This document shows, one piece after another, positions 1 to 12,781 of a stretch of 64,000 nucleotides of DNA. The notes beneath the pieces are model-generated. The model was not told where the DNA came from. It saw only the letters and a list, made by a program, of their open reading frames with translations, and made no database searches. This DNA is from an uncultured Hungatella sp. (GTDB lineage Bacteria > Bacillota > Clostridia > Lachnospirales > Lachnospiraceae): the NCBI GenBank assembly GCA_947089145.1, contig CAMUJH010000001.1:109599-173598 (forward strand), in the 5' to 3' direction. A program made the translations under genes and the position numbers. Position 1 is the stretch's first letter, and every line of letters starts with the position of its first letter.

Positions 1-3000
1 TAGCTGCCCCGTTATACAGCGCTTCCACCACCTTCCCTTTGACGCCGGCGCCGTACCTCAGCGGCACCGCCACAATTCTGGTGGTGTCATACAGCCGTAC
101 CAGTTCCTCCTCGCTGACAAATCCCTTAATTATAATTCCATTGCCAGGCTGCTCCAAATCTCGGATTTCCTGGGTCACTTTGGAACCTGCCACATAAAAG
201 ACGGGCGGCTTCTGTCCGGCCTTTTCCATCTGCAGGCGAATCAGAGGATAGACTTCTTTTACAAACCACCAAACCGCGTCCGCATTAGGCGGATGGGCAA
301 ATCCTCCTACAAATAAGATCCCTTCCCTCTTGGCAAAGTCCTCTGGAATGTCCGTCCGGAACTCGTCGTATACATATGCCACAATGTCCTTTACCGGAAT
401 ATCCTCGTCGATTGCTTTGATGGCATCTCTCTCCACATAGGACGGATAATAGGATACCGCGGCTTTATACATTAGCGACAGCTCCACAGATCTCCAATAT
501 TCTGACGACTCCTTTTTCTCTGGGTCCCCCGTCAGCTCGTACTCCCGCCCTTCCCTTAAAAAATGCAGGTCATGACCGTAATATATGATCTTAATATCTG
601 TGTTTTCTTTTATATAATCAATATATTTCGATGCAATATGGGGCCTGTTTAAATAAGCAAATTGAATGTCACTGCCATGATTCCTTAACCACTCCCAGAT
701 CCCCGCCTGGTAATCCTGCCCATAGAGTATCTCAATGCCCATTTGCTGCAGTACTGTGGAATACGGCTCCTCGTGCAGGAAATTATCTCCCAAAAACTTC
801 ACCGCATATCCCATTTTCAAAAACATTTTAAGATATTGGAATGTGGTCTTGGAGCCTGCATCCCTGTCATAAGTGGGCACATAGTGATCCACCACAAGAA
901 TCATCGGCTTGCCCATGCTTCTCTCCCTGGCCCGGAACGGATCAGGGTTCCCGTTGTTCTCGCATTGTCCGGCCAACTCTTGTGCCCACTTCTCTTTCAG
1001 CTTTTGGCTGTTTATTGTCTGATACCGTTTCAGCCCGGTGCCCAAAACGTCGGTTCCATTGGAAATTCCTTCGAAATGAATCACTTTGGACAGCGGCTGA
1101 TACACCACGCGATAACCGGCCTTTCTCACTGCAAAGGCCAGATCCGAGTCTTCGCAGTAGGCTGGGGCAAACCGCTGATCAAAGCCGCCTATCTGTTGCC
1201 ACAAAGCATTGGAAAGCAGAATCGCCGCACCGGAAATATAGTCTACGTCCTTTACATAATTGTACTCCGGCTTGTCCGGATCATCCAGCCGGCCATAATT
1301 CCACCCGGAACCATCGCTCCAGATTATGCCGCCTGCCTCCTGGAGCCGCCCGTCAGGGTACACCAGCTTCGACCCGGTCATGCCGATAGAGGCATCGGAT
1401 TCTATCAGATTGACCAGGGAACTAAGCCACCCTTCTGTAACCTGAGTGTCATTGTTGAGAAACATTACATACTTTCCCCTGGCAGACTTGGCTCCGTTAT
1501 TACAGTTGCGCAGAAACCCCTGATTGGAAGTATTTCTGCAGATCACAAGTCCCTCCGCATACCGTTCCAGGTTTGCGGTCCCGTCTGTAGACACGTCATC
1601 CGCAATGATCACTTCATAATCCACGTCTTTCGTGTGCTCCAATATAGATACCAGGCAGGCATACGTATAATGAATCTGATTATATACGGGGATGATAATG
1701 GACACCATGGGATTGTCCGTCCTGGTGAATTTCAGTTTCCCATGCTCCCGGTATTGGCTTCCGATGACAAAATCGCCTTCCAGCAGATTCTTTCCCTCCT
1801 CAGACCCATACAGTTTTATGGAGCGGACAGGATGCAGCACGTACTCCTTTACAAGAGCCAGCTTTTTCCGCTTCACGGACCCTTTCGGAAATCTGGCGTT
1901 AAACGCTTCTCCCAGCCTCCTCCTTATCTTAAATACCAGTGCCTCATGCCTGTTAAGATAATCAAGCGTCTTGGCCATCTCTCCGATTTCCCGCCGCAGA
2001 TCCTTTATGATAATCTCCAGATTGGTCACATGGTTCTGGGTCAGCCGCTGGACTTCTGTCATCTTCCGGATAGTCCCGTCCCTTTCCCTCAACTGCATGC
2101 GGGACTGGTTCCGAAGCTGTTCCAGACGCTCTTTCGTCCTCTCTAACTCCCTGTCTGTCTTTGTCAGTTCCCGGAAAGTTTTGGTTCTCACATAAAAATT
2201 TTCCAGATAAATCTTCTGATTTTCCCCATGGACATAAGCCTGAAAGCTTTTCTCCATGTCTTCATAGAGACTTGCCGCCTCTTTTGTAATGCCGAATTCC
2301 TTAAGCCAGTCCTCTGCCTGGCCATAGGCCGTCAAAAGGCTGCGGTACTGTCTGTAAAAGTAAAACAGCATCCGGTATTTCACATATTCCAAAGGCACGG
2401 GAAAGAAAAACACCCACTCATAATCCAGGCAGTATGTTTCCTCCCCCAAAAGAATATTTTCAAACAGCATATCAATATTGGAAACCTGAAGACTCTCGCT
2501 GCCCTCCAGCCCCTTACCGGGCAGTTCTCCAAACACCCTGGCAAACTCCGGCGTCACCTGGAAAGGCTGAAGACAGGACGGGTCCGCCGCAAGCACGGTT
2601 TCCATGGCTTCTTTCACCGTATCAACAGGCGCCTGCCCGTCTCTCACTGCCTGCCCCAGCTGCTCTGACAATGTATGCCCCACAATATACGGAAACCCTG
2701 CGCTGCCGTCCGCAACGGCAGGCATGGCGAATTTCAGATTCAGGTGCTGTCTGTTAAGCCCTATGCATTTTTCCTTAAAAGAGGCAATATGCTCCGCTCC
2801 GTCTGCCGCCAAGGCGGTCTTCTCTACCCGTCTGGGCTTTCCGAAAATTACCGTCCTAATCTGGAACGCTTCTTTCCTGGTGCGGTTGTATTTTATATAT
2901 TCAGCCCTCTCTTCATCCCCTGATCCCCCGCCCTGGCGCCAGATTGCCAAATATGCGTTGGCATAGCGGTCAAACTGCCCGTCCTCGCACACGGCGTCAT

Positions 3001-3745
3001 AGGACGCGCCTATATCAAGGGCCAGATAGGGAGGATAGTCGTAGGCAGTTACCGTGTCAGTCAAATCCCCTTTTCCCGGAAGATACTCATCTGAAAAGAT
3101 CGTTACAGGAATGCGGTAATCCGGCATAGGGTAGTAAAACTTCACATCCTGTCCCCTGTCCTCGTCTGACAAAAGCCTTATAAGCGCAGATTTAGAAAAG
3201 CTGAATGCATCCTTCTTGGCTCCGGCCCAGTATTTGAGGCCAAAAGGATTGCAGGCGGCCACAAGCAGTTCTCCCTCCGGCTTCAGCAAGGCTTTCGCAG
3301 CCCGTATCTCCTCTCCGGCGTTTTCCCCCAGAGTACCTGCAAATACGATATAATCATACTTTTTTGCGAAAGCTTCTTTTATGCTTCCGCCCTGCAGGGC
3401 ATAACTGCAGATTTCTCCTTTATAGTAGCTGATATTCTGCCGCCCTGCCAGTTCTCTGTGGCGCAGGCAATTTACCTCCAGATTCTCTTCCGAACTGTCC
3501 AGCACATCCACATGAGCCGTCTTTCGGCTGTAAACACCTGTCAGGGCGCCGTAGCCGGCCCCCACCTCCAGCAAACATGCGTCAGCCCGAAAAGGATACC
3601 ACTCCATCAGATTCTCTCTCTGATCCGAAAGGGCGTACAGGTAGTCAAGCCTTACGTGTTCCTTTAAGGCCTGCTTTCTATCCCCCTTATAAGTTTTTAA
3701 GATCCGTATCAGCTCCCTGCTGATATCCCCGCTGTCTCTGCTCAT
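1..3745 (-). CDS. Methyltransferase / kinase-like / coiled-coil / GT2 / GT4 multidomain polysaccharide enzyme (WbdD-like N-terminus), C-terminus cut by window edge
   Basis: The reading frame is open from the ATG at 3745 to the window edge, giving 1248 residues with no stop. Residues 55-190 form a class I SAM methyltransferase with motif I LEVGAGYGALTG at 59-70. Residues 285-460 look like a protein-kinase fold: K309 in a beta-3-like strand (RRVEKTAL), E318 in an alpha-C-like position, D425 and N430 in NIDMLFENIL, and D441 in LDYEW. Residues about 525-600 are a charged coiled coil. A GT2 domain starts near 672 (VSIIIPVYNQ, later FLNNDTQV, and GGFDQRFAPAYCEDSDL), and a GT4 domain starts near 935 and is still open at the edge. 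MT, kinase and coil in this order is the layout of WbdD, which caps and measures ABC-exported O antigens; that role here is inference. It follows the Wzt gene by 34 bp and is probably the last step of the locus. The missing tail is likely under 150 residues. Confidence 0.85.
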   Translation of the reverse strand, partial: MSRDSGDISRELIRILKTYKGDRKQALKEHVRLDYLYALSDQRENLMEWYPFRADACLLEVGAGYGALTGVYSRKTAHVDVLDSSEENLEVNCLRHRELAGRQNISYYKGEICSYALQGGSIKEAFAKKYDYIVFAGTLGENAGEEIRAAKALLKPEGELLVAACNPFGLKYWAGAKKDAFSFSKSALIRLLSDEDRGQDVKFYYPMPDYRIPVTIFSDEYLPGKGDLTDTVTAYDYPPYLALDIGASYDAVCEDGQFDRYANAYLAIWRQGGGSGDEERAEYIKYNRTRKEAFQIRTVIFGKPRRVEKTALAADGAEHIASFKEKCIGLNRQHLNLKFAMPAVADGSAGFPYIVGHTLSEQLGQAVRDGQAPVDTVKEAMETVLAADPSCLQPFQVTPEFARVFGELPGKGLEGSESLQVSNIDMLFENILLGEETYCLDYEWVFFFPVPLEYVKYRMLFYFYRQYRSLLTAYGQAEDWLKEFGITKEAASLYEDMEKSFQAYVHGENQKIYLENFYVRTKTFRELTKTDRELERTKERLEQLRNQSRMQLRERDGTIRKMTEVQRLTQNHVTNLEIIIKDLRREIGEMAKTLDYLNRHEALVFKIRRRLGEAFNARFPKGSVKRKKLALVKEYVLHPVRSIKLYGSEEGKNLLEGDFVIGSQYREHGKLKFTRTDNPMVSIIIPVYNQIHYTYACLVSILEHTKDVDYEVIIADDVSTDGTANLERYAEGLVICRNTSNQGFLRNCNNGAKSARGKYVMFLNNDTQVTEGWLSSLVNLIESDASIGMTGSKLVYPDGRLQEAGGIIWSDGSGWNYGRLDDPDKPEYNYVKDVDYISGAAILLSNALWQQIGGFDQRFAPAYCEDSDLAFAVRKAGYRVVYQPLSKVIHFEGISNGTDVLGTGLKRYQTINSQKLKEKWAQELAGQCENNGNPDPFRARERSMGKPMILVVDHYVPTYDRDAGSKTTFQYLKMFLKMGYAVKFLGDNFLHEEPYSTVLQQMGIEILYGQDYQAGIWEWLRNHGSDIQFAYLNRPHIASKYIDYIKENTDIKIIYYGHDLHFLREGREYELTGDPEKKESSEYWRSVELSLMYKAAVSYYPSYVERDAIKAIDEDIPVKDIVAYVYDEFRTDIPEDFAKREGILFVGGFAHPPNADAVWWFVKEVYPLIRLQMEKAGQKPPVFYVAGSKVTQEIRDLEQPGNGIIIKGFVSEEELVRLYDTTRIVAVPLRYGAGVKGKVVEALYNGAA

Positions 3746-3779: not shown

Positions 3780-5102
3780 TTAGTTCCCTGAGCTTCCTGC
3801 CTCAATCTTCTTGGCCTCCACCACTGACTCCATATCATAGACGCCCACAGTATTCTTATTAGAAATAACCGTAATATTAGCCACGTCGTACAGCCTGTGA
3901 TAGACCACGTGTTCCCCCATCTCAAACCCTGTGCAGCTCATGGACAGCAGGTATTCTCCCCCCTGAAGCGTCATTTTCTGAGTAAAAGAAACCTCATATT
4001 CATCTCCGCTTTTTACCGGCCTGATATCCGCTCCTTCGAACATGGTGTTGGTCCCGCTGAGTTCCGTTCCCTTCTTGTCCTTAATGGTATACGTAAAGAT
4101 GGGCGCCTGAATGGCTGCATGAAAACGTATTTTCTCTTTTATGGTAAAATTCTCGCCTTTCAGCAAAAGATTTGTAATATTCCCCCGCTCATCCAAAAGC
4201 CCCAGATCATAGATCTCAGCCCGTCCGTCACCATATTCTGTCCGGCTGCTGTTAATGGTCAGTTTCTCCTTCATCAGCCCGCCTGCCCTGTCCCGTTTTG
4301 ATCCGTTTTCCCTGGCATCCTCCCCGGAGAAATCATTCATCTCCTCCAGTTCCTCTTCCAGAGAGTCCATCTGGTTGGCCAGAATCTTTTTATACAGATC
4401 CACCATGTGCCCCGGAGGGCCTTCTGCCACAAAATTGCCTTTATTCAGAAGCACCACCTTATGGCAGTATTTGATAATGCTTCCCATGTCATGGGTCACC
4501 ATCAGAATGGTTGTCCCTTTCTCGCGGATCTCTTCCATCCGCCTGTAGCACTTGGACTGAAAAAAAACATCCCCCACGGACAGAGCCTCGTCCACGATCA
4601 AAATCTCCGGCTCCACGTTAATGGCCAAAGCAAAAGCCAGCCGCACAAACATACCGCTGGAATAAGTCTTTACCGGCTGATAGACAAAGTCCCCTATGTC
4701 CGCAAAGTCCAGAATATCCTGAAGCTTTCCGTCCATCTCTTTCTTTGAAAATCCCATCATGGTGCCGTTCATATAGATATTTTCAATCCCTGTATAATCG
4801 GAATTAAACCCGGCCCCCAGCTCCAGAAGGGCCGAAATATTCCCTTTCACCTCCACGGTTCCCGTAGTAGGAGATAAAACCCCGGTAATAATTTTCAAAA
4901 TCGTAGATTTCCCCGACCCGTTGGTGCCGATAATCCCCACCGTCTCCCCTTTCTTCACCTGAAAAGAGAGATTGTTGAGGGCATAGAACTTCTTATGATA
5001 CTCTTTATGCCCCGGATGCAGGGATTCCTTCAGCCGGTCAATGGGTTTCTCATACATTTTATAGATTTTCGTCACGTCTTTTACCGTTATTGCATTTTCC
5101 AT
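3780..5102 (-). CDS. wzt: Polysaccharide ABC exporter ATPase with C-terminal cargo-binding domain (Wzt/TagH type)
   Basis: This is the ATPase of an ABC-2 exporter that moves finished glycans across the membrane. The nucleotide-binding domain shows Walker A GTNGSGKST, signature YSSGMFVRLAFA and Walker B EILIVDEAL. After about residue 250 comes a beta-rich domain of the Wzt_C kind, which in Gram-negative homologs recognises the modified end of the polymer. The length (about 440) fits the long, cargo-selective Wzt class and exceeds a plain TagH-like NBD. AAAGG lies six bases before the ATG at 5102; an ATG at 5108 directly abuts it and is less likely. The permease gene is 14 bp upstream and the WbdD-like enzyme gene is downstream. 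Confidence 0.9.
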   Translation of the reverse strand: MENAITVKDVTKIYKMYEKPIDRLKESLHPGHKEYHKKFYALNNLSFQVKKGETVGIIGTNGSGKSTILKIITGVLSPTTGTVEVKGNISALLELGAGFNSDYTGIENIYMNGTMMGFSKKEMDGKLQDILDFADIGDFVYQPVKTYSSGMFVRLAFALAINVEPEILIVDEALSVGDVFFQSKCYRRMEEIREKGTTILMVTHDMGSIIKYCHKVVLLNKGNFVAEGPPGHMVDLYKKILANQMDSLEEELEEMNDFSGEDARENGSKRDRAGGLMKEKLTINSSRTEYGDGRAEIYDLGLLDERGNITNLLLKGENFTIKEKIRFHAAIQAPIFTYTIKDKKGTELSGTNTMFEGADIRPVKSGDEYEVSFTQKMTLQGGEYLLSMSCTGFEMGEHVVYHRLYDVANITVISNKNTVGVYDMESVVEAKKIEAGSSGN

Positions 5103-5116
5103 AGTCATCCTTTCAT

Positions 5117-5935
5117 CTACAGCACATCTGAAAAATGCGGCCTCAGCCTTTTAAACACTTTAAGCCCCACCAAAAATATGCATATGGTTACTGCCCAAAA
5201 ATACACTGTCAGTCTGGGCTTCTCCCAAAATCCGTTTCCTAAAAGCATGCTGTCCCGGTATCCGGACACTACATAATACATGGGGTTCAGCTTTATAATT
5301 TTGCACAGCAGGGGATAATAGGACCTGTCTGCAAACTGCTCCTCCTGCCACATGATGGGAATCAGCCACATGCCAAACTGCAGGCAGATGCCCACAATCT
5401 GAGCCATATCCTTAAAAAACACCTGTATGGCGCTGGTAAAATAGACAATGGCCATGGAAAACATGGTAACCGCAAAGGTATAGTACGCCGTCTGAAGCCA
5501 GCTTATCCTGGGCATCCATCCAAAGCACAGATACATCCCCGCCATGATGGCAACAAAAATAACATGGACAATCAGGCAGGAAAGTATCTTTATGATCGGC
5601 AGGACTTCTACCCGGAATACCACCTTTTTCACCAGATAGCTGTACTCCTGCAGGCAGTTGGTTCCCGCATTCAGCACCTCGCTGAAATAGAACCATGGTA
5701 CGATTCCCGGCACCAGCCACAGCACATAGGGAACCCCCTCAATAGGGCTGCCGCTTCGAAGCCCTATGCCAAACACAAAATAATAGATAAGCACCGTGAC
5801 AATCGGCTGGACAAACATCCAGACCACGCCAAAGTAGGACCCTACAAACCGCTTCCGAAAGTCAGCCTTTGCCAGATCCCCTATGAGCCTTCGCTTTTTA
5901 ATGATATCCTTTCCCAGGGATATTACATAATCCAT
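5117..5935 (-). CDS. wzm: Polysaccharide ABC exporter permease (Wzm/TagG type)
   Basis: This 272-residue integral membrane protein of the ABC-2 family has about six hydrophobic segments. The N-terminal cytoplasmic stretch ends in DFRKRFVGSYFGVVWMFVQP, the typical entry to the first membrane helix of O-antigen and teichoic-acid export permeases. The partner ATPase gene follows immediately, so the two form one exporter. GGAAGGGATTGT precedes the ATG. The upstream neighbour is an RmlC-type epimerase, which suggests a deoxyhexose-containing cargo. Wzm and TagG cannot be told apart by sequence inspection alone. Confidence 0.9.
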   Translation of the reverse strand: MDYVISLGKDIIKKRRLIGDLAKADFRKRFVGSYFGVVWMFVQPIVTVLIYYFVFGIGLRSGSPIEGVPYVLWLVPGIVPWFYFSEVLNAGTNCLQEYSYLVKKVVFRVEVLPIIKILSCLIVHVIFVAIMAGMYLCFGWMPRISWLQTAYYTFAVTMFSMAIVYFTSAIQVFFKDMAQIVGICLQFGMWLIPIMWQEEQFADRSYYPLLCKIIKLNPMYYVVSGYRDSMLLGNGFWEKPRLTVYFWAVTICIFLVGLKVFKRLRPHFSDVL

Positions 5936-5947
5936 ACAATCCCTTCC

Positions 5948-6511
5948 TTACGCTTCCTGGAATTTAAAGGTATCCTTTAACCCGCCCCATTTCTGATCCT
6001 TCTCAGAGATAATCAGCTTCATCTGATCCTCAATGGGCCACTGCACCCCTATCTCAGGGTCATTCCACGCAAGTCCGCCCTCGTCACCGGGATGATAGAA
6101 GTCTGTACATTTATAGACAAACTCCGCCTCCTCCGAGAGAACCAAAAAGCCGTGGGCAAACCCTTCCGGAATATAAAATTGTTTCTTATTCTCCGCAGAC
6201 AGCTCCACTCCAAACCACTTTCCATATGTTTTGGAATTGGCCCGCAGATCTACAGCCACATCAAACACGGCCCCCCTTACTACTCTTACCAGTTTGCCCT
6301 GGGGAAACTGTTTCTGGAAATGAAGCCCTCTCAGAACACCTTTCACGGACATGGACTGGTTATCCTGTACAAATATCATATCCAGCCCTGCCTCTCTGAA
6401 ATCATTCTGATTGTAAGTTTCTACAAAATATCCTCTCTCGTCTTTGAACACGGTGGGTTCAATCACGTAAAGCCCTTCTATGTCACATGGTGTTACTGTT
6501 ATCTTACCCAT
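5948..6511 (-). CDS. rfbC: dTDP-4-dehydrorhamnose 3,5-epimerase (RmlC family)
   Basis: This cupin-fold epimerase of the dTDP-L-rhamnose pathway isomerises C3 and C5 of dTDP-4-keto-6-deoxyglucose. The 187-residue length is standard. Diagnostic blocks are YFVETYNQNDF, the SMSVKGVLRGLHFQ block carrying the catalytic histidine, GKLVRVVRGAVFDVAVDLR, and IPEGFAHGFLVLSEEAEF. GAGGAGAATTTAGT precedes the ATG. RmlA, RmlB and RmlD are not in this window, so the rest of the pathway must lie elsewhere, or the enzyme may serve a related 6-deoxysugar. It sits directly before the Wzm/Wzt exporter genes. Confidence 0.92.
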   Translation of the reverse strand: MGKITVTPCDIEGLYVIEPTVFKDERGYFVETYNQNDFREAGLDMIFVQDNQSMSVKGVLRGLHFQKQFPQGKLVRVVRGAVFDVAVDLRANSKTYGKWFGVELSAENKKQFYIPEGFAHGFLVLSEEAEFVYKCTDFYHPGDEGGLAWNDPEIGVQWPIEDQMKLIISEKDQKWGGLKDTFKFQEA

Positions 6512-6572
6512 ACTAAATTCTCCTCACTTTTTCTTTAGCCGCAGGCATCTGCAAAACTTTGCACAAAGCCCC

Positions 6573-8240
6573 TTACAGCCTCATGCTTACAACGGAATAC
6601 AGACGAAGAATCACATAGCCGTTAGTGCAGCACATCAGATACAATATACTACGGTTTCCATTCTTTGTCAAAACTATGACATTATTTTTAAATGCCATTA
6701 GCAGCACCGGCAGGAACGGGAGAAAATATCTTCCCTGAACTCCGCTTATAACCGGAGAGCTTAAAGGCGTCCAGGCAATCAGCATGGAGGCCATAGCCGC
6801 AAAGCCGCAAAGCGCGCACATGACGCAGATCCAAATGCGGTTTCCCGCTGACATCCTCTGCGATTCTCCCGGCTTTTTCGCAGCCAGGCACAGCAGCGCG
6901 GCCGTAAACACTGCCACTGCGCCGTAGGGCACGTCCAGCACCGAGTCAAGATTGCCCAGGTATGCCCCGATCATAGTCATATGGTAATACTCAGCCTGCC
7001 ATAAAAGCGTCTGATAAAACATACGCACTGCCTGCAGGGGACGGTGAAGCAAAAGGCTTAAACTGTAGCCTGCCTCCTGGGACCATGGCACCACGCTCTC
7101 TGTCTCTGTGGCATACGATACAATGGTCTGGCCATTGACAAAGGTCATAGACAAGCCCCATGCCGCTGCCACGGCGGCGGCAGACAATAGCCATGGCTTC
7201 CACCCTCCGAACTTCTTTACGGGAATCAACAGGCACAGCCCCATTAATACCCCGTATATCAGCTTGCAGGGGCCCGCTGCGGCCATAATCCCGGCAATCA
7301 CCGCCACGTCGGCTGCCCGCACCCGCTCTTTCTCATAGGCCAGATCCAGACATACCGCCGACAGATAAAACATGCCCCCCAGGATCATCACATCATAAGA
7401 AAAGGATGCCGACAAATGCAGCGTCATAGGAAGCAGCGCCACTCCGAAAAGAACTTCTTTGCCAAAGGGAAGACGTCTCATGGCAAGGTATGTGGCTCCC
7501 ACGAAAAACAAAAGATTGCCAAGCCGTCCCATATAAAGAAGCATAATAGTGTTTAAGCCCAAAAGCCTTGCCAGAGAAATCCCCAGCGCCTGAGGAACAT
7601 AGGCGGCAGGAGTCGTGACAACAGGAGGATACGGGGAAAGGATCAGGGAATGTTTCAGCTGTTCTTGAGATTTGGCCGCCTTTGGGTACCTCTGCCCCCA
7701 GATTCCCTGCTGCCTTATGGTTTCATAAGTCTTTTCCTCAAGAAGCTCACCCAGATAGCCGGATTCTGCCGCCGTTTCCGCTGCAGGCTGCATATATCCG
7801 TCTTCGCTTTCCTCATACTCCCACTGGTCTTTTACATCCTCCGCCCAAATATCCTGCGGACGCACCAGAACATGGCCTGTGGCGGAGTTGGAGGGCTGCC
7901 CCAGAAAGCGGCTGGACAGCTGATACGCCCCCATATAGTGGCTGATCTCATCCGGGGCCGAAAGCGGTGGAAGAACCAGGAGATAAAAAATCCCCAGTGT
8001 TATCCCTGCCACGGCGTAGACTGTTTCAAGTTTCCTGCGGGGCCTGGTTTCATCAGGACAGAACATCTTTCCCAAAGCCCCAACAGCGGCGACAGTCCCT
8101 GCAAACAGCAGCAGATACTGCCCCACAAGCCACCTGTTTTTACTTTCCAAAGCCCCGGATTTTACATCCAGAAGATGCCACAGCCCGAAAGCTGCCACAG
8201 TCAGGCAGCCCCACAGCCAGGCCCTATTGTTCCTCTTCAT
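6573..8240 (-). CDS. DUF2142 polytopic membrane protein, putative GT-C-like enzyme of the polysaccharide locus
   Basis: This roughly 555-residue protein has about twelve hydrophobic segments and a large loop after the third (about residues 110-200), which contains PPLSAPDEISHYMGAYQLS. Membrane proteins with this early acidic motif after the first helices belong to DUF2142 and are usually found with surface-glycan genes. A lipid-linked sugar transferase role is plausible but not shown. The ATG at 8240 has GAGGAGAAAAGGC before it and is preferred over a TTG at 8255. The start overlaps the end of the DUF2304 gene by 17 bp, so the two are translationally coupled. Confidence 0.75.
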   Translation of the reverse strand: MKRNNRAWLWGCLTVAAFGLWHLLDVKSGALESKNRWLVGQYLLLFAGTVAAVGALGKMFCPDETRPRRKLETVYAVAGITLGIFYLLVLPPLSAPDEISHYMGAYQLSSRFLGQPSNSATGHVLVRPQDIWAEDVKDQWEYEESEDGYMQPAAETAAESGYLGELLEEKTYETIRQQGIWGQRYPKAAKSQEQLKHSLILSPYPPVVTTPAAYVPQALGISLARLLGLNTIMLLYMGRLGNLLFFVGATYLAMRRLPFGKEVLFGVALLPMTLHLSASFSYDVMILGGMFYLSAVCLDLAYEKERVRAADVAVIAGIMAAAGPCKLIYGVLMGLCLLIPVKKFGGWKPWLLSAAAVAAAWGLSMTFVNGQTIVSYATETESVVPWSQEAGYSLSLLLHRPLQAVRMFYQTLLWQAEYYHMTMIGAYLGNLDSVLDVPYGAVAVFTAALLCLAAKKPGESQRMSAGNRIWICVMCALCGFAAMASMLIAWTPLSSPVISGVQGRYFLPFLPVLLMAFKNNVIVLTKNGNRSILYLMCCTNGYVILRLYSVVSMRL

Positions 8241-8571
8241 GCCTTTTCTCCTCAAGAGCCATCTGCTGCACCAGTTCTTTAATTTTTGTCTCCAGCTGTG
8301 AGATCTGGATGGTCATATCAAATACTTTTACAATCAGCAGAAAAATCGCCATCAGAAACAGAAAATTGGCAGTGGAGTAGATCCCCAGAACCCTGGCGCA
8401 AAAATCTGCCGCCGCCGGAAAGATACTGTATATTACCAGCACAATTGCCAGAACTATCCAGAATATAGCGCTTTCTATCTGCACTTTGGACTGCCTTATC
8501 TTCCGCATCATCAGAAAAAAGGTTCCCACTGACACCAGAATCAGGGCAATCCGCAGGGTCATTGTCATCAT
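8224..8571 (-). CDS. DUF2304 small membrane protein
   Basis: This 115-residue protein has three hydrophobic segments followed by a charged amphipathic tail (QISQLETKIKELVQQMALEEKRHEEEQ region, likely coiled coil). The motif QSKVQIESAIFWIVLAIVL is typical of DUF2304 proteins, which are commonly encoded beside DPM1-like glycosyltransferases in glycan loci. The ATG at 8571 overlaps the TGA of the upstream GT2 gene in an ATGA junction, so this start is preferred over an ATG 48 bp further up. Its biochemical role is not established. Confidence 0.8.
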   Translation of the reverse strand: MMTMTLRIALILVSVGTFFLMMRKIRQSKVQIESAIFWIVLAIVLVIYSIFPAAADFCARVLGIYSTANFLFLMAIFLLIVKVFDMTIQISQLETKIKELVQQMALEEKRHEEEQ

Positions 8572-9542
8572 GCCTGCATCCCCCATTTCCTTTTCCAGTA
8601 CTCTCTGTTTCCCGTGCATCGCAAAATCATGGCTTTAGGCAGTTTTTTATACATTTTCCCTGTGCGGTATCCCATATATTTGCATCCGCTGCTTATAATG
8701 AGGGACGTAAGCAGCCAAAACCGTCCTGTCCGCAGAAGCCATGCCGCCGTATCTTTCACCAGGCGGATGCCTTCCCCCTCTGACCTAAGGCCGCTGAATA
8801 CTTCCGGATGTTCCGCCTGGGAAACTGCCAGATCAAAATTCCTCCGAAACTGTCCGCCAGGCGACAGATTATGAGAATGAATCACCTTGGCTTCTGCCTC
8901 GTAGACAACGGCATAGCCTGCCTTAAGGACTCCTGCCGCATAAACCATATCCTCATTAAAAATAGCGCTGTCCGCAAACCCGCCGTTCTTCACGAAGATG
9001 TCTCTCCGATAGGCGCAGCACACGTTGGACGCAAAATAGGTCTTGATTCCCAGCCTGGGCAGGTCGTTTAATGTCTTAACCGCCCCCTTGCCGGGATAAT
9101 TAAAGGCCCGCGTATGCCGCTCAATGGTGCGGCAGTCTTTGTCCGGCAGCTGTCTGGCATAAGCCATGGCCGCCTGCTGTCCCTGGGAACCCTCCTGTTC
9201 CAGCGCCTTTACCAGTTTCTCTACCAGATACTTATCGTAAGGCACCGCGTCATCCGTCATAAAAATCATCACGTCCGCGCCGGAATACCCGGCTGCCGTA
9301 TTTCTCGTGGCTCCATGGTCAAATTCCGCTTTGGAGACATGGTGGACTTCCAGCCCCCGGACAGCTTTGTATCCGTCCTCATTCCAATATCTTTTCTCCG
9401 TGTTCATCACAATAATCCGATTCACTTTATAGGTCTGCTTCTGAAGCATCTGCAGAAGTCTGGCAAACCGTTTTCCTGGTTTATACACCGGTATCAGCAC
9501 ATCCACTTCCGGCGGATTCTGCCATCTCATAGATTCCATCAC
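8568..9542 (-). CDS. Glycosyltransferase family 2 (rhamnosyltransferase-like)
   Basis: This 324-residue GT-A enzyme opens with VDVLIPVYKPGKRFARLLQML, has the metal-site region MIFMTDDAVPYDKYL and the acceptor-side segment GGFADSAIFNEDMVYAAGVLKAGY. It probably transfers a deoxyhexose from a nucleotide donor to the growing glycan; the rhamnosyl assignment rests on family resemblance and on the nearby rfbC. It is joined by ATGA overlaps to the flippase gene upstream and the DUF2304 gene downstream, which indicates a tight operon. Confidence 0.85.
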   Translation of the reverse strand: MMESMRWQNPPEVDVLIPVYKPGKRFARLLQMLQKQTYKVNRIIVMNTEKRYWNEDGYKAVRGLEVHHVSKAEFDHGATRNTAAGYSGADVMIFMTDDAVPYDKYLVEKLVKALEQEGSQGQQAAMAYARQLPDKDCRTIERHTRAFNYPGKGAVKTLNDLPRLGIKTYFASNVCCAYRRDIFVKNGGFADSAIFNEDMVYAAGVLKAGYAVVYEAEAKVIHSHNLSPGGQFRRNFDLAVSQAEHPEVFSGLRSEGEGIRLVKDTAAWLLRTGRFWLLTSLIISSGCKYMGYRTGKMYKKLPKAMILRCTGNREYWKRKWGMQA

Positions 9543-10846
9543 TCCTGTCTCTTACATTTTCTGCCTTTCCTGATTCCTGCCCAGGTCCATGCGGCAAACC
9601 CTGCTGCCATTGCTGCCATCAGAATCAGATAAGCCGCTGCCGCTCCGTATATTCCGCTTCTTTTTACCAGAGCCGGAGCCAAAACCGCCGCCAGGCCTGT
9701 CAAAGCCAGATATATACCGAAAATCACACGCTGTTTCCTCATAATCACTAGTGCATAGTAGTGAAGATTTAAAAATGCATAGCAGGCTCCCCCCATGACA
9801 ATCAGAATAAAAGGCACATGGCTGCTAACCAGCTTTCCTTCATAGCCGCTGCCTAAAATCCGCTCCAAAACCCACAGAACCGGCCTGCCCAGCCCTGCCG
9901 CCAAAACCAGGGCCAAAATGCTCAAAGCGCCGATGATCCTGGAAATGGACATAAGCTTTCCAGAAAACGCATCGAACCGTTTCTGAGTCCACATATCAGT
10001 CAGGCTGGTCAGAACCGGACGGATCACAAAGCCTGCCGCCAGATTAATAACGGATGTAGGCATAAAAATAATATTGAAATACCCGGATGCCGCATCATTC
10101 AGATGGGCGTCAATGGCATATTTCGCCGCAGAAAATATATAGAAATCTAAAAACACGGACACAAACAGAAGTATGCTCTCATTGGTAAGGGGCCTCATTC
10201 TGCTTTTGTCCCATGCATAGTCAACGCCTTTCAGCCGTTTTAAAATTATGACGTCAAACAGCAGGATTCCTGCTGCCTGGGCCCCCAGCGCGGCTGCGCA
10301 GGCCGCTGTCAAGTTTCTGCCGGTTAAAAACGCCGTAAAAAAAACTCCCACAGACAAAATCGTCCGAAACGTGTTGGATTTCCCTGTAAGATGAAGATTT
10401 CCGTTTCTCTGGAATTCTGATTCATAGACATCCGCCAGCCCGTCCGCCACTTTATAGCACACCAGCAGAAAAACCAATGTCATCTTTCTGGCTGAATATC
10501 CTGAAAGTATCAGATATCCTGCCCCGGCCGCCAAAGCAAGGCCGCAGGTAATATATCTGTGATGAAGGTAATCTCCAAAGCGGTATTCCTGGCTGCCGTC
10601 CGTAATCTGAAACGGGCGCATTCCAAAATAAGCCAGAATAAACATTTGCTGGCCAAAGGTGCTGTAGCCAAAAGCAAAAATCCCTCCGTCATCCTCGCCG
10701 GCCAGACGCATCACCAAAAAAGACAGAACCATGCTGGCAAACGCATAGCAGAAGCTTCCTGCCATATTCCAGAGAATATTCTGTTTTTCTTTATTCGGAC
10801 CGGTTTTCATAAGCGCTGTCGCCCACCGCTCTGCCATAGCTGTCAT
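9539..10846 (-). CDS. Polysaccharide flippase-like membrane protein (Wzx/MOP superfamily)
   Basis: This 435-residue protein has about twelve hydrophobic helices spread evenly, as in Wzx and other MOP exporters of lipid-linked sugars. The N-terminal block NILWNMAGSFCYAFASMVLSF and the SILLFVSVFLDFYIFSAAKYAI segment are typical. A locus with both a Wzx-like protein and an ABC exporter may handle two kinds of lipid-linked intermediates, for example polymer and side-branch precursors. The stop overlaps the next gene start (ATGA). AAGGACAG lies just before the ATG. Confidence 0.82.
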   Translation of the reverse strand: MTAMAERWATALMKTGPNKEKQNILWNMAGSFCYAFASMVLSFLVMRLAGEDDGGIFAFGYSTFGQQMFILAYFGMRPFQITDGSQEYRFGDYLHHRYITCGLALAAGAGYLILSGYSARKMTLVFLLVCYKVADGLADVYESEFQRNGNLHLTGKSNTFRTILSVGVFFTAFLTGRNLTAACAAALGAQAAGILLFDVIILKRLKGVDYAWDKSRMRPLTNESILLFVSVFLDFYIFSAAKYAIDAHLNDAASGYFNIIFMPTSVINLAAGFVIRPVLTSLTDMWTQKRFDAFSGKLMSISRIIGALSILALVLAAGLGRPVLWVLERILGSGYEGKLVSSHVPFILIVMGGACYAFLNLHYYALVIMRKQRVIFGIYLALTGLAAVLAPALVKRSGIYGAAAAYLILMAAMAAGFAAWTWAGIRKGRKCKRQE

Positions 10847-10917
10847 CTGTCCTTGCCTGCACCTTTCTGCACCTGTGCGCCGTCCTGCCTTGAGGAGCCG
10901 CGGTTTTCACAGTGCCC

Positions 10918-11685
10918 TCAGCTCCGCTTTCTAAAATTCTGTATCAGTAAAATAGAAAGCAGCATCCTTATCATGTATTTCGCTGCCACCATGGGCCTTA
11001 GATAGCTTTTTCCCCCTGCCCTCTCTGCAATCTCCACCGGAATCTCCCCGATTCTGGCGCCCTGTTTCAGCAAATAAGAAATCGTATCCGGCTCAGGCCC
11101 ATAGTTAAGGTTCCATGCGAACTCCCCTATGGTTTCCCGGTTAAACATCCTCATTCCGGAAGTGGGATCTGTCACCTTTACTCCGGTAGTAATAAAAATC
11201 GCCCCGGCAATCAGCCTGCTTCCAATCATCCTCATGGAAAAGTCCTTCTTATTATGAATAAAGCGGCTTCCGATAACGATCTCATATCCCTCATCCATTT
11301 TCTCTCTCATGGATCTGATAAATTCCGGCCGGTGCTGACCGTCGCCGTCAAACTGGATCGCATAGGCATACCCCTTATTCCAGGCATATTTCATCCCTGC
11401 CTGAAAACACCCGGCAAGCCCCAGATTTACCGGAAGATCCAGAAGATTATATCCCTTTTCCCTGCATATTTGCGCCGTTTTATCCCGAGAGCCGTCATTA
11501 ACCACAATGTAGTCCAGCTCCGGGCATTTCTGCACCAGTTCCTTAACTACCATGTCAATATTAGCCTCTTCGTTATACGCCGGTATTACTGCCAGCACCT
11601 TTTCTCTCAGTTCCACCTTCTGGTTCTCTCTTTCTATATCATCAATGTATCCCGTTTCCCTTAGTTCAATGCCCTTTCCTCTCAA
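10918..11685 (-). CDS. Glycosyltransferase family 2, DPM1-like (polyprenyl-phosphate sugar synthase type), uncertain start
   Basis: The protein is compact and DPM1-like: LAVIPAYNEEANIDMVVKEL, YIVVNDGSRDKT, LPVNLGLAGCFQAGMKYA, IQFDGDGQHRPEFI and the late block NLNYGPEPDTISYLLK. Family members load a sugar onto polyprenyl phosphate for use by membrane GT-C enzymes, which suits the DUF2142 and DUF2304 neighbours. There is no C-terminal membrane anchor pair. No in-frame ATG precedes the domain. The listed start is a TTG at 11685; a GTG at 11616 is nearer the domain, and a good GGAAAGG stands before an in-frame ATT at about 11670. The gene overlaps the DegT gene by up to 20 bp. Confidence 0.8.
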   Translation of the reverse strand: MRGKGIELRETGYIDDIERENQKVELREKVLAVIPAYNEEANIDMVVKELVQKCPELDYIVVNDGSRDKTAQICREKGYNLLDLPVNLGLAGCFQAGMKYAWNKGYAYAIQFDGDGQHRPEFIRSMREKMDEGYEIVIGSRFIHNKKDFSMRMIGSRLIAGAIFITTGVKVTDPTSGMRMFNRETIGEFAWNLNYGPEPDTISYLLKQGARIGEIPVEIAERAGGKSYLRPMVAAKYMIRMLLSILLIQNFRKRS

Positions 11686-12781
11686 TGATATCGCAAATCA
11701 TATCCGCCGCATCCATCGGCAGATCCGCATACAGAGGCAGCGTCAGCACCTGTCTCGAAATTCTTGCGGCCACCGGAGTATCTTCTGCGGGGAAGCGCTC
11801 CCTGTAGCACTCGTATTCATTGACACACGGATAAAAATATTTCCGTGCATGAATATTCTTCTCCTTTAACGCCTGAAATATTTCATCTCTCTTGGCTTTG
11901 TAACCGTCAAATACCACTGGCATATAAGCATAGTTATATTTTACTCTTGGATTTTCCCTGCACAGCTTTATGCCCTTTATTCCCTCCAGCCGATGACGGT
12001 AATGCATGGCAAGTTGTTTCCGCTTTCGAATCTCCTCGTCCACATGGCGCAGGTTGCACAGCCCCATAGCCGCCTGAAATTCATTCATTTTGCCGTTGGC
12101 GCCTACATATTCCACGGTTTCGCTGTCCATAATCCCAAAATTTTTCAGCTGGTACAGCCGTTTTTCCAAAGATGCCTCCTTAAATGCCACCGCGCCTCCC
12201 TCAATGCTGTGAAACACTTTTGTGGCATGAAAGCTGAACATGGAGGCATCTCCCCATGTGCCTACGCCTTTTCCGTCCAGCTCCTCCCCAAATGCATGGG
12301 CTGCGTCATAGATGACTTTCAGATGATGCCTGTCCGCAATCTCCTGGATCTTTTCCACATCGCACAAGTTCCCATAAACATGAACCGGAACAATGGCGCA
12401 GGTCCTTTCTGTGATTAAGCTCTCAATCAAGTCCGCATTCAGCGTGTAGTCTTCCTCATTGATATCGCAGAGTACCGGAGTAAGGCCGTTTCTCACAATG
12501 GCATGGGTGGTGGAGGCAAATGTAAACGGCGTGGTAATAACCTCCCCCTTCAGCTCCATGGCCTGAATCGCCAGCTCTAAAGCCATATGGCCGTTGACAA
12601 ACAGCTCCAGGTTTGTCAATTTCAGATATTTTTTCAGCTGTTCCCGGAACTCTTCATGGTAAGCCCCCATATTGGTCAGCCAGGCACTGTCCCAAATAGG
12701 TTTCAGCATCTCTATATACTCTTCCAGAGGCGGCAGTGATGACCGTGTCACCAGCACCGGCCTTTCCAGCGTTTCCTTCAT
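11666..12781 (-). CDS. DegT/DnrJ/EryC1/StrS family PLP-dependent sugar aminotransferase
   Basis: This 371-residue fold-type I PLP enzyme aminates keto sugars attached to nucleotides. The PLP lysine lies in MFSFHATKVFHSIEGG, preceded by VIYDAAHAFGEE with the aspartate that contacts the cofactor, and TTPFTFASTTHAIVRNGL near the N-terminus. The SFHATKVF form resembles the FdtB/QdtB group that makes 3-amino-3,6-dideoxyhexoses, but the substrate cannot be fixed by eye. Its presence implies an amino-deoxysugar in the glycan. GGAAAGGGAAAGAC precedes the ATG. Confidence 0.88.
   Translation of the reverse strand: MKETLERPVLVTRSSLPPLEEYIEMLKPIWDSAWLTNMGAYHEEFREQLKKYLKLTNLELFVNGHMALELAIQAMELKGEVITTPFTFASTTHAIVRNGLTPVLCDINEEDYTLNADLIESLITERTCAIVPVHVYGNLCDVEKIQEIADRHHLKVIYDAAHAFGEELDGKGVGTWGDASMFSFHATKVFHSIEGGAVAFKEASLEKRLYQLKNFGIMDSETVEYVGANGKMNEFQAAMGLCNLRHVDEEIRKRKQLAMHYRHRLEGIKGIKLCRENPRVKYNYAYMPVVFDGYKAKRDEIFQALKEKNIHARKYFYPCVNEYECYRERFPAEDTPVAARISRQVLTLPLYADLPMDAADMICDIIERKGH

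Follow-up and report, generated by a model that had tools for sequence, protein, structure and literature searches.

A predicted O7-type terminator-polymerase with an unannotated kinase beside an ABC glycan exporter in a Lachnospiraceae bacterium

RESULTS AND DISCUSSION

A candidate polymerase and chain terminator in one polypeptide

The window analyzed here is a stretch of 64,000 nucleotides from an uncultured Hungatella sp. (GenBank assembly GCA_947089145.1, contig CAMUJH010000001.1, positions 109,599 to 173,598 of the forward strand). A minus-strand open reading frame (ORF) at window positions 2-3745 encodes 1248 amino acid residues and is open at the window edge; the full protein in the host genome (4.46 Mb in 127 contigs) has 1321 residues (L001:12379-16344), the last 73 of which lie beyond the window. 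Its modules follow each other in the order methyltransferase (MT), cryptic kinase, helical linker, GT2 glycosyltransferase, and GT4 glycosyltransferase (GT), and its nearest named relative, with 93% identity over 1035 alignment columns, comes from an uncultured Hungatella. A surface glycan exported by an ATP-binding cassette (ABC) transporter is probably both polymerized and terminated by this one polypeptide, in a member of the Lachnospiraceae that is closely related to Hungatella. From its sequence, it is best read as an O7-type terminator-polymerase of the Lachnospiraceae with GT2-GT4 in place of GT2-GT2. The MT and the kinase are homologous to those of the Klebsiella O7 type, the catalytic residues are invariant, the domain order is as given above, and the operon is conserved.

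The enzyme of reference is ORF6 of Klebsiella pneumoniae O7, which the available part of Kelly et al. (2024, PMC11231755) describes as MT-kinase-carbohydrate-binding module (CBM)-coiled coil-GT2-GT2 in one chain. According to this text, the N-terminal MT and an unannotated kinase modify the chain end by phosphorylation and by methylation, the latter remaining incomplete in vitro, and polymerization is the work of the GT2 modules in concert with a separate ribofuranosyltransferase. The D441A variant is kinase-dead, and phosphate and methyl-phosphate product were obtained in vitro. Some orthologues end after the coiled coil, which indicates that GT2-GT2 is not required of a terminator. Orthologues are named there in alphaproteobacteria, gammaproteobacteria, and cyanobacteria, along with a Methanoculleus homologue.

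Kinship of the MT-kinase head to the O7-type enzyme

Alignment A2 of the window family (84 rows) was compared by hhalign with alignment A3 of six O7-type MT-kinases, yielding a probability of 100 and an E value of 8e-48 over 440 columns that comprised both domains. The kinase alone matched the O7-type kinase with a probability of 99 and an E value of 6.7e-18, with reversed controls at 0.43-0.44. Besides the window, A2 contains 83 out of 110 stretches from relatives; the 27 omitted by hand were mostly near-copies and also included both L110 rows and the rows for the separate MTs in L043, L059, and L083. L088 and L100, with genes in pieces, were kept out of A2 and of the tree mentioned below, and L092, cut by a contig end, was kept out of the tree. 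Conserved on both sides are R290, T298, G356, D425, N430, D441, E443, W444, R458, and E498.

The published enzyme was reached through Pseudomonas asturiensis pCC1524, where wzm and wzt are followed by the gene for a protein of 1457 residues (P0004), one of the six sequences in A3. This protein was treated as an O7 ORF6 orthologue because it has the published residues Y28, Y66, G91, G93, E112, and Y158 at identical positions and keeps DxDD and NxD motifs in its two GT2 modules. The Asp of its IDxxPxN motif, with which D425 of the window protein aligns in hhalign, is D443 and is the counterpart of D441 in K. pneumoniae O7, an equivalence that would follow from motif and position.

When 398 genomes across the phylum were searched with the kinase profile, 14 of them matched, including that of the window itself, and the search led to a longer protein, L121, with the layout MT-kinase-coil-GT2-GT2. 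On plasmids, tblastn with the window head gave one record with an MT-level match, which led to a Citrobacter plasmid, and with the remote relative L121 as the query, 10 records were retrieved, of which 2 span most of its length. Citrobacter braakii pF217-3 (L129) has the order rmlBACD-(transposase)-wzm-wzt-(MT-kinase-coil, 649 residues)-GT-GT. This plasmid, which bears the whole rml-wzm-wzt-terminator-GT cluster, is typed as conjugative, so that such O-antigen-type clusters may move.

A kinase domain without Pfam annotation

The initial annotation had listed K309, E318, D425, N430, and D441 as kinase-like residues, and a lack of the catalytic residues in homologs had been set beforehand as one of the results that would speak against a kinase. 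K309, D425, N430, and D441 are invariant in the 26 sequences of alignment A1 (the window's own and 25 relatives) and in the 67 covering rows of a second, named set (the window's own and 66 relatives); the two sets were drawn from different collections and may overlap in species. E318 has to be struck from the list, being E in 3/26 and 11/67 sequences, and the neighboring invariant residue is H319. Also invariant in all 26 are K285, R290, T298, G356, E443, and W444. For A1, 25 of the 30 loci fetched after a family search were used, in which the head matched at an E value of 0.001 or better in 160 of 299 genomes, a number that may include matches to the MT only. The window's own copy (L002) was excluded, and L005, L009, L026, and L031 were removed by a filter for an unbroken kinase match; D-x4-N and DYEW are nevertheless retained in all 4 relatives lost through this coverage filter.

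A profile of the 26 domains matched 14 proteins of the aminoglycoside phosphotransferase (APH) family with an E value of 1e-4 and a probability of 57% over 29 columns, the reversed controls being at E values of 0.36-0.59. The alignment sets D425, N430, and D441 onto the D-x4-N motif and the metal-binding Asp of the APH family. By itself, this sequence match is modest evidence for the identity as a kinase. Pfam assigned no kinase family to the whole protein and none to the 26 domains of A1 except for one weak APH match (1/26, E 0.0051), and residues 165-515 matched no catalytic family, giving chance-level matches to helical families from residue 477 on. Profile searches against the PDB were not significant, with JAK1 as the best match of the A1 kinase (E 0.17) and a best E value of 1.4 for the O7-type profile A4; no WbdD entry was among the 15 matches of the A1 profile at an E value of 10 or below.

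APH-matching ORFs of about 800-1070 residues in relatives had been considered as candidate kinase-GT proteins. They were rejected because the kinase profile found no match in any of the 8 fetched stretches, whose long ORFs were read as ordinary Ser/Thr kinases.

Glycosyltransferase modules, linker, and proposed mechanism

The first GT module matched PF00535 at residues 682-801 (E 1.2e-24) and the second GT2 of P. asturiensis P0004 (27%, E 3e-21), and the last 406 residues of the protein matched Glyco_trans_1_4 (PF13692, E 1e-19) and PF00534 (E 1.6e-8). The initial readings of an MT with a motif at residues 59-70, of GT2 and GT4 modules, and of an adjoining ABC exporter were borne out. The coiled coil proposed at the same time stands in part, namely as a density of hydrophobic residues at heptad positions a and d of at least 0.75 in 28-residue windows starting at residues 556-590. 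The spacing between kinase and GT2, counted in 79 of the 80 relative loci described below, is 148-157 residues in 71 loci, 174-179 in 6, and 209 in 2.

In the proposed mechanism, a chain linked to polyprenol would be lengthened at the membrane by the GT2 and GT4 modules, and dTDP-rhamnose is a likely donor because rmlC is part of the cluster. The N-terminal head, which adds the cap, would be kept at a distance of about one rod length by the helical linker. Once the end of the chain arrives at this head, the kinase would move a phosphate from ATP onto the terminal sugar, and the MT would then methylate the terminal phosphate. That one protein phosphorylates, (partly) methylates, and polymerizes has been published for the homologue only, and we infer the substrate, the cap chemistry, and the ruler function of the window protein. 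The view of the initial annotation that one polypeptide extends and caps the glycan may be kept in outline in this sense, since the homologous O7 ORF6 was shown to do both. Hand-over of the chain to the adjacent Wzt would agree with the gene adjacency and the domain family of this protein.

Conservation of the locus and natural splits of the modules

A scan of species genomes yielded 474 relatives, of which the best 80 by likeness to the window kinase were fetched, so that the following counts of fused and split genes and of layouts are biased to near kin. Wzt is encoded upstream in 80/80 loci (in pieces in 2), at a distance of no more than 60 nt or overlapping in 71 of them, and Wzm was inside the fetched stretch in 45. 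MT and kinase are fused in 48 of the 80 loci (2 in pieces, 1 cut by a contig end). In 32 loci, a gene of its own encodes the MT and precedes a gene for kinase-linker-GT2-GT4, which marks the boundary between MT and kinase, and both genes adjoin in all 32. A FastTree tree of 78 proteins, from 77 loci plus the window, requires no fewer than 4 changes between the fused and the split state, with the same junction throughout. This indicates that the junction was repeatedly opened or closed while the partners stayed together.

Ten distant loci were picked by hand; nine have Wzt and eight have Wzm. The layout wzm-wzt-(MT-kinase, about 730-780 residues)-(multi-GT) of L131, L132, L135, and L137 is that of Escherichia coli O9, and in L133 wzm, wzt, MT, kinase, and GT2 are all separate genes.

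Other partners of the head were also seen. In L120 (139-3162, plus strand), an MT-kinase-coil head runs into a WbsX glycosyltransferase (PF14307, E 7e-103) as another polymerase partner. Three proteins of 755-798 residues in L119 (745-3027, plus strand), L128 (163-2556, minus strand), and L123 (313-2577, minus strand) have a C-terminal CTP_transf_like domain (E values between 9e-19 and 3.5e-17). A remote MT precedes this domain in all three, Pfam assigned no GT domain to them, and a remote kinase match lies ahead of it in L119 (36.6 bits) and L123 (22.5 bits); L128 gave 28.7 bits in the phylum-wide kinase search and was not listed by the later profile. It is possible that these proteins re-use the same head, perhaps for making an activated methylated alcohol.

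Points against the O7-type reading and alternative explanations

Evaluation of the protein as an O7-type terminator-polymerase needs to consider several findings that weigh against it. Addition of O7-type rows gave no stronger link to the APH family (merged E 8e-4; O7-type alone E 0.002). K309 is a Lys in only 3 of the 6 O7-type sequences of A3, and D441 is an Asp in 5 of these 6. The CBM of O7 ORF6 was not seen in the window protein, and the kinship to K. pneumoniae O7 ORF6 runs through P0004 and not through the Klebsiella sequence itself. The distant locus L136 has neither Wzt nor Wzm in 19 kb. Two further points of this kind concern the S-adenosylmethionine (SAM) motif of the relatives and the CTP_transf_like fusions, and each of them leads to another explanation.

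The SAM motif in most aligned relatives is Q-x-G-x-D-Y-G instead of E-x-G-x-G-x-G, with Q60 in 51/64 and D64 in 49/64 rows of A2, and the match of the window MT to Methyltransf_23 (residues 39-163, E 2.6e-5) is below the Pfam cut-off. As one alternative, the head adds no more than a phosphate as the cap, or some other group linked through phosphate, and the MT of most family members has a structural role or is inactive. Methylation may not be general, but the window copy is canonical: it retains E60-V-G62-A-G64-Y-G66 (EVGAGYG, residues 60-66) as well as D83. G62 and G66 are each present in 64/64 rows and D83 in 61/64, and the MT gene never leaves the side of the kinase gene in the split loci, so that this explanation is unlikely. 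A PADLOC match to mad2 (E 1.1e-7, residues 42-195) spans the MT only and was taken as generic methyltransferase similarity.

The existence of related MTs fused to a cytidylyltransferase in L119, L123, and L128 means that the module can serve other chemistry and is not everywhere tied to termination. Such roles in making an activated small molecule could suggest that the MT-kinase of the window protein acts in the making or decoration of a phospho-sugar inside the chain or in a side chain rather than ending the chain. There is a small chance that this is the case, because the fusions are remote in their kinase portion and without a GT domain, whereas the window-type gene has an adjoining Wzt in every one of the 80 loci and is homologous to a proven terminator.

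That the protein is a true WbdD homologue bearing a WbdA-like polymerase, as module order, gene order, and the alignment of the Wzt C-terminal domains of window and E. coli O9 (E 2e-6) might suggest, is very improbable, since hhalign with the WbdD of E. coli HS (O9; P0002) aligned the MT only (E 0.007, probability 5%), the kinase comparison gave an E value of 0.36 over 21 columns and thus no detectable homology, and WbdD itself matches APH and Pkinase in Pfam as well as solved Ser/Thr kinases, none of which the window kinase does. The term "WbdD-like" of the initial annotation is therefore appropriate as an analogy in module order and gene order but not as a statement of kinship, which lies with the O7-type kinase.

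Exporter genes and gene neighborhood

The genes for Wzt, Wzm, and RmlC are all upstream of the terminator gene and in the same direction (Table 1). The Wzt_C domain of the window was similar to those of P. asturiensis (24.8%, E 1e-13) and E. coli O9 (25.7%, E 2e-6). This similarity would fit Wzt proteins that recognize chain ends of a similar kind, in a comparison that had no Wzt of a differently capped cluster as a control.

Ahead of wzm-wzt-terminator, the minus-strand region 5948-12781 of the window encodes a DegT protein, a polyprenyl-phosphate GT2, a flippase-like protein, a GT2, a small membrane protein, which we take to be DUF2304-like, a DUF2142 protein, and RmlC. Individual genes of this region were found in 24-43 of the 80 relative loci, with flanks ending at 10 kb. 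The region may be responsible for extracytoplasmic side-chain addition.

Table 1. Features of the terminator-polymerase gene and the adjoining genes, in window coordinates; domain borders were set by comparison with relatives
Feature	Position	Strand	Evidence
Methyltransferase domain, residues 1-272	2930..3745	-	Pfam Methyltransf_23; hhalign to O7-type; separate gene in 32/80 loci
Cryptic APH-like kinase domain, residues 281-512 (K309, D425, N430, D441, E443, W444)	2210..2905	-	Invariant residues; O7-type kinase match; weak APH match
Catalytic motif D425-x4-N430-x10-D441 (DMLFENILLGEETYCLD)	2423..2473	-	hhalign: D425 on Asp of IDxxPxN motif
Helical linker, putative coiled-coil ruler, residues 515-640	1826..2203	-	Heptad hydrophobic density; kinase-GT2 spacing
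GT2 glycosyltransferase, residues 665-925	971..1753	-	PF00535; similarity to P. asturiensis P0004
GT4-type glycosyltransferase, residues 946-1248 of 946-1321 (remainder beyond window)	2..910	-	PF13692; PF00534
Wzt, ABC ATPase with C-terminal glycan-binding domain	3780..5108	-	Wzt_C, E 2.9e-42; ABC_tran, E 5.1e-24
Wzm, ABC-2 permease	5117..5935	-	ABC2_membrane, E 2.3e-12
rmlC, dTDP-4-dehydrorhamnose 3,5-epimerase	5948..6511	-	dTDP_sugar_isom, E 1.4e-76; present in 43/80 relative loci

Biological meaning

On balance, and with some reserve, we lean toward the view that hundreds of Lachnospiraceae-type genomes encode ABC-exported glycans ended by a (methyl-)phosphate cap from an unannotated kinase, with a rod of near-constant size setting the length. 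The SAM motif has drifted in many species, so that in some of them the cap may be a phosphate without the methyl group. The mode of termination proven in Klebsiella would thereby be extended to common gut commensals, in which the kinase, being without a Pfam annotation, is easily missed. The reading predicts the chain-end chemistry of surface glycans in Hungatella, Lacrimispora, Enterocloster-type clostridia, and their relatives. The loci also offer natural experiments on modularity, with MT and GTs either joined or encoded apart, and on the length of the ruler, with linkers of 148-157, 174-179, and 209 residues. In a limited literature search, no paper was recognizably on a kinase-bearing terminator of this kind in Lachnospiraceae.

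Comparison with known systems

The initial annotation knew of no described fusion of this kind, which is contradicted by O7 ORF6 and WbbB of K. pneumoniae O12 (PMC11231755) and by WsaE of Geobacillus stearothermophilus (PMC2943079), as far as the available text of these papers describes them. WbbB shares with the window protein the combination of polymerase and terminator with a coiled-coil ruler in one chain (PMC11231755) but is reported, in the part available, to cap with 3-deoxy-D-manno-oct-2-ulosonic acid (Kdo) through a glycosyltransferase (PMC9587256). WsaE, a capping methyltransferase fused to two GTs beside wzm/wzt, has in common with the window protein the Gram-positive host, the adjoining wzm/wzt, and the capping MT with two GTs; unlike the window protein, it forms a 2-O-methyl cap and is described in the available text without a kinase, and its chain-length control possibly needs another factor (PMC2943079).

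With WbdD and WbdA of E. coli O9/O9a, the window system shares the gene order wzm-wzt-terminator-polymerase (wzm-wzt-wbdD-wbdA in O9), the order MT-kinase-helical rod, and the proposed capping with ATP and SAM. The differences are the kinase, which is not detectably homologous, and the separation of WbdD from its polymerase.

The closest system is that of O7 ORF6. Both proteins have an MT, an unannotated kinase, a coiled coil (putative in the window protein), and two C-terminal GTs in one chain, a catalytic Asp in D-x4-N, and a cluster with rml genes (rmlD/rmlC in O7), wzm, and wzt. The window protein differs in having a GT2 followed by a GT4 and not GT2-GT2, in its Lachnospiraceae host, and in an MT that is often a separate gene in its relatives. 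The novelty thus lies in the different polymerase (GT2-GT4) behind the same head, where a CBM was not seen, in the new major host group, and in the natural splits of the modules.

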